A DNA stretch of 64,000 bases from Pseudomonadota bacterium (GTDB lineage Bacteria > Pseudomonadota > Alphaproteobacteria > Rhodobacterales > Rhodobacteraceae), in assembly GCA_963205235.1 (NCBI GenBank), contig CAUJIP010000123.1, forward strand, positions 1 to 64,000. Reading direction: 5' to 3'. Position 1 is the stretch's first letter. Every line of letters starts with the position of its first letter. A program made the position numbers and the translations under genes. The notes under the pieces are model-generated. The model was not told the DNA's origin. It was given only the letters and a program-made list of their open reading frames with translations, and ran no database searches. Positions 14,956 to 28,076 of this stretch are shown here, piece after piece.

Positions 14956-15372
14956 ACGCGCGGAGAGCCTGTAAGCCGGATTTTGTCCTGGGCCGAAACC
15001 CATGGATGACCATTCCTCTGCCAACCGTGTTGCCACGGCGGTCAAGCTGCCAACCCGGGCCTCTCGGGCGTTGGCGTCCCTGCGGGCGGTATCCTTTCGG
15101 ACCGGCCCCCGCGCGAGGCCCCTATTTGGCATTGCTCCGGGTGGGGCTTGCCGTGCCGGTCCTGTTGCCAGTCCCGCGGTGGGCTCTTACCCCACCGTTT
15201 CACCATCGCCTTGCCCTAGCGAAGGCGAACCTTCGTTCGTGGCAAGGCAGTCTCTTCTCTGTGGCGCTTTCCCTGGGGTTGCCCCCGCCGGGGGTTACCC
15301 GGCACCCTTGCCAACTGGAGTCCGGACTTTCCTCGGGTGTTGCCACCCGCGGCCATCCAGCCCTCCGCGCGA
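14956..15372 (-). ncRNA. rnpB: RNase P RNA, bacterial class A
   Basis: Minus strand contains GAGGAAAGTCCGGACTCC near the 5' end and GACAAAATCCGGCTTACAGGCTCTCC at the 3' end; ends pair via CGCGCGG/CCGCGCG-type helix; boundaries approximate. Confidence 0.93.
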
Positions 15373-22532: not shown

Positions 22533-22647
22533 TCCGCAGCCCACGGCCAAGGGGGGAAGAATGCCGCCGATTTCCCCCCTGCCTGACTGGCAAGCGTGAT
22601 CCGGTTCGGCTATCGTCCCCGCAAGTGCCATTTTCAGGGGTGTCGGG

Positions 22648-22731
22648 ATGTCGGGAAGCGGGTTGCGGACCTTGTCACTGGGCCTTCTTGTCGCGCTGAT
22701 CGCCTATGTCGCATGGACCGGGGGCGTGTGA
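22648..22731 (+). CDS. Candidate 27-aa single-TM microprotein
   Basis: MSGSGLRTLSLGLLVALIAYVAWTGGV*; stop TGA overlaps the XpaC start (gTGATGg). Confidence 0.5.
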   Translation: MSGSGLRTLSLGLLVALIAYVAWTGGV

Positions 22732-23600
22732 TGGCAGAACGTTTCGGCGGCAAATATTCACCACAAGGCAGCCAGTCCGGCCATACTCCGATGCAAAGCC
22801 CGTTTCGGGCGCAAGGGTCGGATGGCCAATGGCGGACGACGGTCCTGTTCCTGTCGGCCTTCCTGTTCCTGTTTCCCGCCTTCGGCGACGGCCCACGCGA
22901 CCTGCTGTTCGGCCTGTTGGCCGGGGGCGCGCTGATTCTGGCGGCCTGGCTGACCCGCGAAGGGATCAAGGCCGAAGCGGAATACAACACCCGCACGCTG
23001 GCCCGCCGCCCGGCCCTGCCGCGCAAGCTTTTTGGTGCCGCGATCACCGGCATCGCCCTGTTCCTTGGCGGCATGACTGCGGGGATCGGACTGATCTACC
23101 CAGCGCTTTTCGCCCTTGTCGGCGCGGGCCTGCATCTGGGGGCTTTCGGCCTTGATCCGATGCGCGACAAGGGGATGGAGGGGATCGACGCCTTCCAGAC
23201 CGGCCGTGTCGCCCATGCGGTCGAAGAGGGCGAGGGCTATCTTGCCGGGATGACCGATGCCATCCTGCGCGCAGGCGACCGAAGCCTTGAAAAGCGGGTT
23301 GACCAGTTCACCGCCCAGGCCCGCAAGCTTTTCCGCACGATCGAGGCCGATCCCGGCGATCTGACCGCCGCGCGCAAGTACATGTCGGTCTATCTGATGG
23401 GTGCCCGTGACGCGACGATCAAGTTCGCCGACCACTATGCCCAGACCCGCGATGCCAGCGCCCGTGCAGACTATGAGGCGCTGCTGACCGACCTTGAAAC
23501 CACCTTCGCCGAAAAATCCACCGCTTTCCTGTCGAACAACCGGACCGATCTAGATGTCGAGATTTCCGTGCTGCGCGACCGTCTCAAGTTTGACCATTGA
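22731..23600 (+). CDS. XpaC-like (5-bromo-4-chloroindolyl phosphate hydrolysis family) membrane protein
   Basis: 290 codons, two-TM hairpin N-terminus then helical EGEGYLAGMTDAILRAGDRSLEKRVDQFTAQARKLFRTIEADPGDLTAARKYMSVYLMGARDATIKFADHY; followed by TelA. Confidence 0.8.
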   Translation: MAERFGGKYSPQGSQSGHTPMQSPFRAQGSDGQWRTTVLFLSAFLFLFPAFGDGPRDLLFGLLAGGALILAAWLTREGIKAEAEYNTRTLARRPALPRKLFGAAITGIALFLGGMTAGIGLIYPALFALVGAGLHLGAFGLDPMRDKGMEGIDAFQTGRVAHAVEEGEGYLAGMTDAILRAGDRSLEKRVDQFTAQARKLFRTIEADPGDLTAARKYMSVYLMGARDATIKFADHYAQTRDASARADYEALLTDLETTFAEKSTAFLSNNRTDLDVEISVLRDRLKFDH

Positions 23601-23617
23601 CCCAAGGGGAACGTCCC

Positions 23618-24790
23618 ATGTCCGAAACCATTCAATCCAGCGCCGCCGCTTTGTTAAGCGAAGTCGAGAAGGTCACCGCAACCATCCTGCCGGAACCGAT
23701 GGCCGAAGTCGTGCCGCTGGAATCCGCCCCCGCCCCGCAGGCCGAGGCGATCAAGAAACGGATGGCCGAGGTTGACCTGACCAACACCCAGTCGATCATC
23801 GGCTTCGGGTCGGCAGCGCAGTCCGAATTGCAGGTGATCAGCCAGGCCATGCTGCAGGACGTGAAGAACAAGGACGTCGGCCCCGCAGGCGACAGCTTGC
23901 GTAACATCGTCACCACGATCCGTGGCTTTTCGGTCGATGAAATGGACCTGCGCCGCGATGTCAGCTGGTGGGAAAAGCTTCTGGGCCGCGCCGCTCCTTT
24001 CGCCAAGTTCGTCGCGAAATATGAAGACGTGCAAACCCAGATCGACAAGATCACCACCGATCTTCTGACCCATGAAAACACGCTGCTGAAGGATATCAAA
24101 AGCCTTGATATCCTTTATGAAAAGACGCTCGACTTCTACAATGAACTGGCCCTCTACATTGCTGCGGGCGAGGCGAAGCTGGCCGAAGTCGACGCCAAGG
24201 ACATCCCCGCCAAAGAGGCCGAGGTTGCCAAGGCCCCCGAGGCCGATCAGGTGATGAAGGCGCAGGAACTGCGCGACCTGCGCTCGGCCCGCGACGATCT
24301 GGAACGCCGGGTCCATGACCTGCGGCTGACCCGTCAGGTGACGATGCAATCGCTGCCATCGATCCGGCTGGTGCAGGAAAACGACAAGTCGCTGGTCACC
24401 AAGATCAACTCGACCCTCGTGAATACCGTGCCCCTGTGGGAAACCCAACTCGCGCAGGCCGTGACCATCCAGCGCAGCCGCGAGGCGGCAGAAGCCGTGC
24501 GCGACGCCAATGACCTGACCAACGAACTTCTGAAGTCGAACGCTGAAAACCTGCAACAGGCCAACAAGGTCGTGCGCGAGGAAATGGAACGCGGCGTCTT
24601 CGACATCGAAACCGTCAAGGCCGCCAATGCCACACTGATCGCCACGATCAACGAAAGCCTTGCCATCGCCGACGAAGGCAAATCCCGCCGGGCAGCCGCC
24701 GAGCTCGAGCTGGTGAAGATGGAGGCCGAGTTGCGCGATACACTCGCCGCCGCCAAGGCGCGCAAGCCTGTGCCCGCGACTTCGGCCTGA
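23618..24790 (+). CDS. telA: Toxic anion resistance protein, TelA family
   Basis: IIGFGSAAQSELQVISQAMLQDVKNKDVGPAGDSLRNIVTTIRGFSVDEMDLRRDVSWWEKLLGRAAPFAKFVAKYEDVQTQIDKI; TelA family. Confidence 0.93.
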   Translation: MSETIQSSAAALLSEVEKVTATILPEPMAEVVPLESAPAPQAEAIKKRMAEVDLTNTQSIIGFGSAAQSELQVISQAMLQDVKNKDVGPAGDSLRNIVTTIRGFSVDEMDLRRDVSWWEKLLGRAAPFAKFVAKYEDVQTQIDKITTDLLTHENTLLKDIKSLDILYEKTLDFYNELALYIAAGEAKLAEVDAKDIPAKEAEVAKAPEADQVMKAQELRDLRSARDDLERRVHDLRLTRQVTMQSLPSIRLVQENDKSLVTKINSTLVNTVPLWETQLAQAVTIQRSREAAEAVRDANDLTNELLKSNAENLQQANKVVREEMERGVFDIETVKAANATLIATINESLAIADEGKSRRAAAELELVKMEAELRDTLAAAKARKPVPATSA

Positions 24791-24806
24791 CACGGACGAC
24801 CGGGGC

Positions 24807-25745
24807 ATGAAAGCATATTTCAGGCTGAAGGCAGGTGTGGCAGGGATCGCCTGCCTTGCGCTTGCGGCCTGCGACTATGCCGGATTTGGCCCCGGCCCCC
24901 GCGCCTCGCCCCCCCCAGCGCTGGACATTCCCGCTGTGCCGACGCCGAAAAGTGCTGCGGCAATGGCGTATTACGCGCAAGTGCAGGCAACCCTTCTGCG
25001 CGAAGGCCTGCTGCGCAGCGACCCCGGCAGTGAAATTCCCGTGACGCCAGAGGTGCTGGCGCAGAATTTCCTGAAGGTCGCGCTTTTCGACGAATACCGC
25101 CGCGATGCGACCGGCTTTGTGCCCGAGGAAACCGAAAGCCGCCTGCGCCGCTGGGTCGTGCCGATCCGAGTGTCGGTGCGTTTCGGCCCCAGCGTCCCCG
25201 CCGACCGGCAAGGCACCGATCGCGCCCGGATTGCCAGCCTGATCGACCGGCTGTCGCGGGTCACCGGGCATCCGATGACCATGGACGAGGGAAACCCGAA
25301 CTTCTTCATCCAGATCGTGTCGGAAGACGAACGCGAGGCGCTGGAGCCGACGATCCGCTCGGTCCTGCCCGGACTTTCGGCCGGCGACGTCGCGGGGATC
25401 ACCCGGATGCCGAAATCGACCTATTGCATGGTCTATGCCCTGTCCGAGGGCAACACTGGCGGCTATACCCGCGCCTTCGCGGTGATCCGGGCCGAGCACC
25501 CCGACCTGCTGCGCCTGTCCTGCATGCATGAAGAACTGGCCCAGGGTCTTGGCCTGCCGAACGACAGCCACGAAGCCCGCCCCTCGATCTTCAACGATGA
25601 CGAGGAATTCGCCCTCTTGACCGATCAGGACGAACTTATGCTGCGGATGCTTTACAGCCCCGAGCTTCACCCCGGAATGTCCGTGACCGAAGCCCGCCCC
25701 CTTCTGTTGCCTCTTGCGCGTCGCCTCTTGGGCGGCGAAACTTGA
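24807..25745 (+). CDS. DUF2927-family lipoprotein
   Basis: Lipobox LALAACDY; NFLKVALFDEYRR...RLSRVTGHPM...NFFIQIVSEDE...LSCMHEELAQGLGLPNDSHEARPSIFNDDEEFALLTDQDELMLRMLYSPEL. Confidence 0.8.
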   Translation: MKAYFRLKAGVAGIACLALAACDYAGFGPGPRASPPPALDIPAVPTPKSAAAMAYYAQVQATLLREGLLRSDPGSEIPVTPEVLAQNFLKVALFDEYRRDATGFVPEETESRLRRWVVPIRVSVRFGPSVPADRQGTDRARIASLIDRLSRVTGHPMTMDEGNPNFFIQIVSEDEREALEPTIRSVLPGLSAGDVAGITRMPKSTYCMVYALSEGNTGGYTRAFAVIRAEHPDLLRLSCMHEELAQGLGLPNDSHEARPSIFNDDEEFALLTDQDELMLRMLYSPELHPGMSVTEARPLLLPLARRLLGGET

Positions 25746-25779
25746 TCAGCCCGGAACGGGCCCTGTACGGAGTTAGCCC

Positions 25780-26892
25780 ATGGTCTTCGATTTTCTCAAA
25801 GGCGAATTCATCGACGTCATCTCTTGGCTGGATGACACGCGTGATACGATGGTCTGGCGCTTTGACCGGCGCGGGCAGGCGATCAAGATGGGTGCCAAGC
25901 TGACCGTTCGCGAAGGCCAGGCCGCCGTCTTCATCCACGAAGGCCAACTGGCGGATGTCTTCACCCCCGGTCTCTATCAGCTTGAGACCAACAACATGCC
26001 GATCATGACCACGTTGCAGCACTGGTCCCACGGCTTCCAAAGCCCGTTCAAGTCCGAGGTCTATTTCGTCTCGACCACCCGGTTCAATGACCAGAAATGG
26101 GGCACCAAGAACCCGATCATGGCGCGTGACCCCGAATTCGGCCCGGTCCGCATCCGCGCTTTCGGCACCTATTCGATGCGGGTGACCGACCCCGGCAAGT
26201 TCATGACCGAAATCGTCGGCACCGACGGCGAATTCACCACCGACGAGGTGACGAACCAGATCCGTAATCAGATCGTGCAGTCCGCCAGCCAGGCCTTGGC
26301 GGCTTCGGGCATTCCCGTCCTGGACATGGCCGCGAACCTGGAGGACCTGGGCAAGATCATCGCCGAAAAGATCACCCCCAAGGTCGGCGAATACGGGCTG
26401 TCGATCCCGGAATTCTACATTGAAAACATCAGCCTGCCCGAAGAGGTGGAAAAGGCGATGGACAAGCGCAGCTCCATCGGCGTTGTCGGGGACCTGAACA
26501 AATACATGCAGTTCAACGCCGCCGAGGCGCTGAACCAGCCGGGCGGCGCGATGGGCGCGGCCATGGGCACCGGTCTTGGCGCGGGCATCGGTTTCAACAT
26601 GGCGGCGCAGGCCGCTGGCCCTTGGGGCGCGGCCCAGCCGCCCGCTGCCCCGGCCGCCGCAGCCCCGCCACCGCCGCCCCCGCCGCCTGCGGGCAAGCAG
26701 TGGCACCTTGCCGAAAACGGCGCGACCCAGGGCCCCTTTGGCGACGCCGACCTGCGCCGTCTGGCCATGGAAGGCCGCTTTACCCGCGCCACGATGGTCT
26801 GGAGCCAAGGCCAGGATGGCTGGAAGATGGCCGCCGAGACTGAACTGGCCGCTCTTCTGGACAGCCTGCCCCCGCCGCCCCCCAAACCCTGA
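25780..26892 (+). CDS. SPFH-domain protein with C-terminal GYF-like domain
   Basis: MVFDFLKGEFIDVISWLDDTRDTMVWRFDRRGQAIKMGAKLTVREGQAAVFIHEGQLADVF...; Pro/Ala linker; KQWHLAENGATQGPFGDADLRRLAMEGRFTRATMVWSQGQDGWKMAAE (GYF_2-like). Confidence 0.88.
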   Translation: MVFDFLKGEFIDVISWLDDTRDTMVWRFDRRGQAIKMGAKLTVREGQAAVFIHEGQLADVFTPGLYQLETNNMPIMTTLQHWSHGFQSPFKSEVYFVSTTRFNDQKWGTKNPIMARDPEFGPVRIRAFGTYSMRVTDPGKFMTEIVGTDGEFTTDEVTNQIRNQIVQSASQALAASGIPVLDMAANLEDLGKIIAEKITPKVGEYGLSIPEFYIENISLPEEVEKAMDKRSSIGVVGDLNKYMQFNAAEALNQPGGAMGAAMGTGLGAGIGFNMAAQAAGPWGAAQPPAAPAAAAPPPPPPPPAGKQWHLAENGATQGPFGDADLRRLAMEGRFTRATMVWSQGQDGWKMAAETELAALLDSLPPPPPKP

Positions 26893-26900
26893 GTGACTGA

Positions 26901-28076
26901 ATGGCCGCCGAAGAAGAAGAACACCGCTGGCCCTGCTCGCAATGCGGTGCCAAACTCCGCTACTCTCCAGGCCAGAAAAGCCTGACCTGCGATCATTGCG
27001 GCCATGAACAGGCGATCCCTGAAGCTGTCGATGGCGCCAAGACCCGCGCTTTCAGGGAACTTGACCTTGCGCGGGGCCTGGCCGACGACCTGCCCACCGG
27101 CACGGTCGAGGATGTCCGCACCACCTCTTGCCCCTCTTGCGGTGCCCAGATCGAAGTTACGGGGGCCACCCATGCCACCGAATGCCCGTTCTGCGCCACG
27201 CCCGTGGTGCTGGACACCGGCACCCACCGCCTGATCAAGCCGCAGGCCGTCTTGCCCTTCAAACTTTCGGAACCCGAAGCCCGCAAGCAGATGATCGACT
27301 GGATGGGCAAGCTCTGGTTCGCGCCGAACGGGCTTTTGGAATATTCCCGCAAGGGCCGCGCGATGAACGGGGTCTATGTGCCCTATTGGACCTTCGACGC
27401 CGATACCGCGTCTGACTATACCGGCCAGCGCGGCGAACATTACTGGGAAACCGAACATTATACGGTCACCGTCAACGGCAAGTCCGAATCCCGCACCCGA
27501 CAGGTGCAGAAGACCCGCTGGTATTCCGCCTCGGGCCATGTGGCGCGCGATTTCGACGATGTCCTCGTCATCGCCTCGCACGCCCTGCCAAAAACGCTGG
27601 CCGACAATCTGGAGCCCTGGACTCTGGGCGAACTTGCGCCCTACAGCCCCGAATACCTCGCCGGGTTTCAGGCCGAGGGCTATACCGTCAGTCTTGCCGA
27701 TGGCCATGTCGAAGGCCGCCAGCGCATGTCCCGGGTGATCCATGACGACGTCTGCCGCGACATCGGCGGGGATGAACAACGGGTTCATTCGGTGAATACC
27801 GCCTGGTCCGATGAAACCTTCAAACATGTGCTCTTGCCGGTCTGGATGGCTGCCTACAAGTACAACGCCAAAAGCTACCGTTTCCTGGTGAACGGCCAGA
27901 CGGGCGAGGTGCAGGGCGAACGGCCATGGTCGATCTGGAAGATCGGCTTTGCCGTTGCGGGCGTCGTGGCCGTCATTGCCGCCGCGATCTACCTGATCGG
28001 CCCGGAAAAGCTTGGCTTTGTGGCGGAAAGTGTGGGGGGCCGCATCCCCTATATCAACCTTGAAGGAACAGAGTGA
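26901..28076 (+). CDS. Multi-zinc-ribbon protein with C-terminal TM helix
   Basis: CSQCGAKLRYSPGQKSLTCDHCG; CPSCGAQIEVTGATHATECPFC; C-terminal FAVAGVVAVIAAAIYLIG. Confidence 0.82.
   Translation: MAAEEEEHRWPCSQCGAKLRYSPGQKSLTCDHCGHEQAIPEAVDGAKTRAFRELDLARGLADDLPTGTVEDVRTTSCPSCGAQIEVTGATHATECPFCATPVVLDTGTHRLIKPQAVLPFKLSEPEARKQMIDWMGKLWFAPNGLLEYSRKGRAMNGVYVPYWTFDADTASDYTGQRGEHYWETEHYTVTVNGKSESRTRQVQKTRWYSASGHVARDFDDVLVIASHALPKTLADNLEPWTLGELAPYSPEYLAGFQAEGYTVSLADGHVEGRQRMSRVIHDDVCRDIGGDEQRVHSVNTAWSDETFKHVLLPVWMAAYKYNAKSYRFLVNGQTGEVQGERPWSIWKIGFAVAGVVAVIAAAIYLIGPEKLGFVAESVGGRIPYINLEGTE

Follow-up and report, generated by a model that had tools for sequence, protein, structure and literature searches.

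Gene content and upstream features of the operon

The window analysed here is a 64,000-nucleotide stretch of a Rhodobacteraceae contig, and at positions 22648-28076 it carries a co-directional six-gene set. The sequence-only reading had described six same-strand ORFs joined by overlaps or small gaps. Inspection of the sequence, the ORFs and Pfam matches bore this out, with the genes spaced by gaps of 8-34 nt or a 1-nt overlap. The genes and the elements preceding them are as follows.

22551..22579, + strand: hairpin GGGGGGAA...TTCCCCCC, terminator-like, without a T run, between rluB and the operon
22588..22616, + strand: candidate promoter pair TGGCAA - 17 nt - TATCGT, ahead of the microprotein
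22648..22731, + strand: microprotein, 27 aa, single TM, operon gene 1; hydrophobic ORF conserved before xpaC
22731..23600, + strand: XpaC (PF10112), 289 aa; Pfam E 7e-21 and hydropathy
23618..24790, + strand: TelA (PF05816), 390 aa, soluble, long helices; Pfam E 5e-107
24807..25745, + strand: DUF2927 (PF11150) lipoprotein; Pfam E 1e-61
25780..26892, + strand: SPFH (Band_7_1) protein, YdjI-type; PF13421 3e-102 and GYF_2 (PF14237) 3e-15
26901..28076, + strand: two-zinc-ribbon protein with a C-terminal TM helix, YdjG-like in layout; CxxC pairs and hydropathy

XpaC and TelA are adjacent on the same strand, each above its Pfam cut-off (PF10112 and PF05816). Hydropathy places hydrophobic stretches in the N-terminal half of XpaC, followed by a predicted cytosolic domain. 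No TerD-, TerB- or TerC-type components were found among the operon proteins using Pfam, and an NCBIfam search returned nothing useful. Elsewhere in the window, positions 14956-15368 of the minus strand encode a class A RNase P RNA (RF00010, 264.6 bits).

The hairpin after rluB has a minimum free energy of -20.3 kcal/mol (z -1.94), and similar sequence is found in four of five close relatives. In five relatives the TGGCAA-17-TATCGT pair has an aligned counterpart, the motif CTGG.A.G ... TCGGCTAAGGTC. Because a strict sigma-70 scan did not list this pair, we treat it as a candidate promoter only.

The stop codon of the microprotein overlaps the XpaC ATG by 1 nt (TGATG), setting the XpaC start at 22731, and a 1-nt overlap with the next start recurs in 30 loci. 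A hydrophobic ORF of 24-33 aa lies directly upstream of xpaC in 76 of 77 named loci; the ORF search window was lenient, and this count is weak taken alone. The case for a real gene comes instead from the motif that the copies share, as they align with the consensus GLQKxAYxLL...GVxxG. Additionally, substitutions favour synonymous change (pN 0.40 < pS 0.65), and in the comparison with the near relative L138, 24 synonymous sites carry 12.5 changes and 57 non-synonymous sites carry 5.5. Judged by these sequence patterns, we take the 27-aa ORF to be a real gene that is conserved upstream of xpaC.

Conservation and modular make-up of the gene set

The host genome is 97.6% complete and encodes a single TelA; its nearest named relatives are Rhodobacter/Tabrizicola. 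Of 121 genomes of the order, 119 encode TelA, 120 encode DUF2927 and 118 have a member of the SPFH family, which passes the cut-off in 117. The sequence-only reading had made its proposal depend on the genes being conserved together elsewhere, and this is what we found. In a genus-level set (one locus per genus with flanks, n=56), XpaC, TelA, DUF2927, SPFH and the zinc-ribbon gene occur in the same order in 45 loci, mostly just downstream of rluB. In a separate collection of 80 named loci the order is likewise kept, with all five large genes present in 67; contig ends truncate ten of the 13 others. Conservation of the gene set is far beyond chance.

Some loci carry variations on this arrangement. 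Two tandem XpaC-like genes precede telA in L087, L096 and L102, the first copy being divergent. In ten genera a related cytochrome b561-like membrane protein is inserted at the same place, between the SPFH and zinc-ribbon genes (L029, L030, L082, L084, L089, L095, L107, L111, L119 and L123). We left this gene out of the parts list because its name comes from our own reading of the sequence and because it is not universal. One locus titled Enemella evansiae (L173, JAFKDC010000001.1) holds a typical Rhodobacteraceae operon; Enemella evansiae is an actinobacterium, and either the name or the assembly is probably wrong.

The gene set joins, in Rhodobacteraceae, three modules: XpaC-TelA, DUF2927 and the SPFH-zinc-ribbon pair. 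Distant Pseudomonadota, and also plasmids, carry the SPFH gene followed by the zinc-ribbon gene as a two-gene unit without TelA. In those other alphaproteobacteria that were examined XpaC-TelA stands without SPFH neighbours, and outside the family DUF2927 often occurs without either of the other units; both observations count against the explanation that we prefer below. Two loci from other alphaproteobacteria (L033 and L035) have TelA and XpaC adjoining lipoprotein or substrate-binding-protein-like genes in place of SPFH.

Losses link TelA with SPFH. Genomes G155 and G250 lack both proteins, and none of the 121 genomes has SPFH over the cut-off while lacking TelA (Fisher p 8e-4 for co-loss, the 121 genomes being treated as independent with no correction for phylogeny). 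Genome G225 has XpaC-TelA-DUF2927 and no SPFH. At the G250 locus (L126), DUF2927 comes after rluB and is itself followed by a sugar kinase, the gene that succeeds the operon in G243 (L122), a genome of the same genus. XpaC-TelA is thus gone from one side of DUF2927 and SPFH-zinc-ribbon from the other. Since DUF2927 lies between the two losses, one simple deletion is inadequate as an explanation, and its retention without the rest argues that DUF2927 also works alone.

XpaC and TelA are also joined to an SPFH protein in viruses. Four consecutive genes, for a membrane protein of the YqiJ type, an SPFH protein of the flotillin type, XpaC and TelA, occur in the 469 kb Sinorhizobium jumbo phage Phosso and in the viral contigs L218, L219, L220 and L224. 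Pfam confirms the cassette on L245 and L218.

L245, 885-5065: YqiJ-flotillin-XpaC-TelA cassette
L218, 1745-6158: the same cassette
L219, L220, L224: the same cassette

Because the phage SPFH protein belongs to another subfamily, XpaC-TelA has met an SPFH protein at least twice. A jumbo-phage review states that TelA occurs in these phages and proposes a sub-membrane role; its passage on TelA does not mention the cassette (PMC7824862). YqiJ-YqiK/flotillin operons likewise pair an SPFH scaffold with a membrane partner and are the type joined to XpaC-TelA in jumbo phages; unlike the Rhodobacteraceae operon, they use another SPFH subfamily and another partner and have neither DUF2927 nor a zinc-ribbon gene.

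Encoded proteins compared with known systems

The SPFH protein has a proline-rich linker, a C-terminal GYF_2 domain and, by hydropathy, no TM stretch. The last protein of the operon matches no Pfam family above cut-off. It was described earlier as a multi-zinc-ribbon protein with a C-terminal TM helix; the helix stands (one, near residues 348-366), while the ribbons number only two, each CxxC...CxxC, at about residues 13-34 and 77-98. YdjI, the SPFH protein of B. subtilis, depends on the membrane proteins YdjG/H and brings PspA to the membrane (PMC8581546); its partner YdjG combines a TM segment with two zinc ribbons (PMC11237479). The operon studied here shares with pspA-ydjG-ydjH-ydjI a soluble Band_7 SPFH protein adjoining a two-zinc-ribbon TM protein, alike to YdjG by layout, together with a long-helical partner (PMC8581546, PMC11237479). 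In contrast to the B. subtilis operon, it has no PspA and no YdjH (TPM domain), its SPFH protein ends in GYF rather than a zinc ribbon, and it contains XpaC, TelA, DUF2927 and the microprotein. Pfam found no YdjH-type TPM membrane protein among the operon proteins, and PspA/IM30 (PF04012) was not found in the host genome. PspA is absent from 81 of the 121 relatives and present in 40; among the coordinates listed, it adjoins the operon in none of those 40.

The structure model of TelA is weak (pLDDT 75) and contains two very long consecutive helices, 127-205 and 208-324. Foldseek matched it to BAR-domain, ClyA-type and other long-helix proteins (TM <0.6, E >=0.003), with no PspA/ESCRT-III structure among the top 50 for this weak model. 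These generic long-helix matches, obtained with a weak model, lend no support to an ESCRT-III/PspA fold for TelA. R. sphaeroides telA is listed as a chromosomal tellurite-resistance determinant in a review whose entry gives no account of the operon (PMC6955997), and a Listeria telA mutant is more sensitive to nisin and tellurite (PMC12791056). These xpaC-telA(yaaN) pairs (Listeria lmo1966-1967, PMC12791056) resemble the present operon in the adjacency of XpaC and TelA and, with R. sphaeroides telA, in the link to tellurite and nisin tolerance, but no SPFH, zinc-ribbon or DUF2927 partners are described for them.

We propose TelA as the SPFH client here because of the YdjI/YdjG-like layout, the lack of a detected PspA, and the links to tellurite and nisin tolerance. 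By analogy, we hypothesize that TelA stands in for PspA. One third of relatives carry both TelA and PspA, so in those relatives TelA is not a plain substitute.

The DUF2927 lipoprotein has an invariant Cys22, and a structure model built from 73 operon copies reached a pLDDT of 92.6. The 50 best PDB matches returned by Foldseek are all matrixins/snapalysin, led by MMP-13, MMP-1 and snapalysin (probability up to 1.0, best E 3.6e-3, TM ~0.6 on target). DUF2927 is thus predicted to have a matrixin/metzincin protease fold. The active-site helix of metzincins ends at the Gly of HExxHxxGxxH, and helix 233-248 of the model stops just before G249. Downstream, SIFND followed by LTxHDExLLxxLY presumably corresponds, in the same order, to the metzincin Met-turn and last helix. 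Both features support the match. By sequence, neither Pfam profiles nor a PDB profile linked DUF2927 to peptidases; the link is seen by fold only.

Despite this predicted fold, the zinc motif HExxHxxGxxH/D is missing from DUF2927, whose residues at the ligand positions are E, E, Q and N/D. Apart from single deviations, the 73 operon copies share EExxQxxGxx[N]D with 15 homologues found elsewhere. With HExxHxxGxxH replaced by EExxQxxGxxND, we rejected the reading of DUF2927 as an active zinc protease. DUF2927 further differs from matrixins and metzincins (MMPs, snapalysin) in having Phe for the Met of the Met-turn and in being a lipoprotein. It is probably a pseudoprotease, though it may instead have a non-canonical metal site. 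Our literature search found no paper mentioning DUF2927. A second DUF2927 paralogue of about 440-470 aa also occurs (G000:C49:44570-45163, L239; L240:4599-5957), with a TPR-like stretch in the L239 copy. By our sequence-based naming of neighbours, the gene adjoining this paralogue is VWA/CoxE-like, and L240 additionally has a MoxR-like ATPase gene next to it.

A proposed role in envelope maintenance and its alternatives

Most likely, the proteins of the six-gene set form a scaffold supporting the inner membrane when chemicals stress it. By analogy with pspA-ydjGHI, we lean, at somewhat better than an even chance, towards a core envelope-maintenance operon of Rhodobacteraceae in which TelA takes PspA's place beside an SPFH scaffold. 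The soluble SPFH protein would assemble at the inner membrane, on its cytosolic face, with the zinc-ribbon TM protein keeping it in place, just as YdjG/H hold YdjI in B. subtilis. XpaC would anchor the long helical TelA next to SPFH, where TelA would fill the place of PspA as a polymer stiffening or patching the stressed membrane, giving tolerance to tellurite and membrane-active agents. Outside the membrane, the probably inactive protease fold of the DUF2927 lipoprotein would tune the complex by binding a protein or peptide of the envelope. The 27-aa TM protein probably serves XpaC as a small regulator or a subunit. The earlier proposal of one functional unit tied to membrane stress gains support from the family-wide conserved order, the co-loss of TelA and SPFH, the independent jumbo-phage XpaC-TelA-SPFH cassette and the literature (PMC8581546, PMC11237479, PMC12791056, PMC6955997). 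The single envelope-spanning complex suggested by the sequence-only reading is a putative one, and the L126 locus, where DUF2927 is kept alone, argues that this lipoprotein can also act apart from it.

The Pfam name of TelA and the listing of R. sphaeroides telA as a chromosomal tellurite determinant (PMC6955997) would also fit an operon for tellurite or toxic-oxyanion resistance, in which TelA itself confers metal-oxyanion tolerance and the other genes assist. We consider this unlikely, as nearly the whole family has TelA as a core gene irrespective of habitat, Listeria telA protects against nisin too (PMC12791056), and Pfam gave no match to a reductase, methylase or pump among the operon proteins. 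Rather unlikely, in our view, is a scaffold for the quality control or assembly of membrane proteins, with SPFH as a chaperone-like ring, DUF2927 as an outside substrate-binding pseudoprotease and stress tolerance as a secondary effect. Although chaperone-like roles have been proposed for Band-7 proteins (PMC11237479), and the protease-like predicted fold of DUF2927, the constitutive look of the candidate promoter and the recurrent b561-like insertions all point this way, Pfam found neither an AAA+ ATPase nor an active protease in the operon.

An anti-phage role, in which a sub-membrane barrier of the Ter/TelA kind blocks phage entry, draws on the phage cassettes with XpaC, TelA and flotillin and on a proposal by jumbo-phage authors that superinfecting phage are stopped by Ter components, TelA among them (PMC7824862). 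The sequence-only reading had likewise named a candidate defence system. This was not upheld: the PADLOC scan gave no family above noise (best scores of 10-16 bits, from zinc-ribbon or coiled-coil noise), and the genes have housekeeping neighbours and occur in ~98% of the family, mostly at a fixed site beside rluB, unlike variable defence islands. We rejected the defence-system reading on the PADLOC result and this core distribution, and regard an anti-phage operon as highly improbable.

The envelope-maintenance reading can be extended, tentatively and with considerable doubt, to XpaC-TelA-SPFH as a second, PspA-independent membrane-repair machine. TelA would then be the client polymer of SPFH as PspA is of YdjI; the machine would be fixed in Rhodobacteraceae and occur with flotillin in jumbo phages, and in Rhodobacteraceae a pseudo-metzincin lipoprotein would read it from the outside while the 27-aa TM protein tunes it.

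Three parts of the operon appear to be undescribed: the tiny membrane protein, the protease-shaped lipoprotein lacking the usual metal-binding residues, and the TelA-SPFH pairing that also occurs in jumbo phages. The conserved microprotein now has a genomic context, and DUF2927 gains a fold and a testable pseudoprotease prediction. For decades TelA has been labelled 'toxic anion resistance' with no known mechanism to explain the name. The tie between TelA and SPFH in this operon, its repetition in jumbo phages and the joint loss of the two proteins make it directly addressable whether SPFH recruits TelA as it does PspA in B. subtilis.
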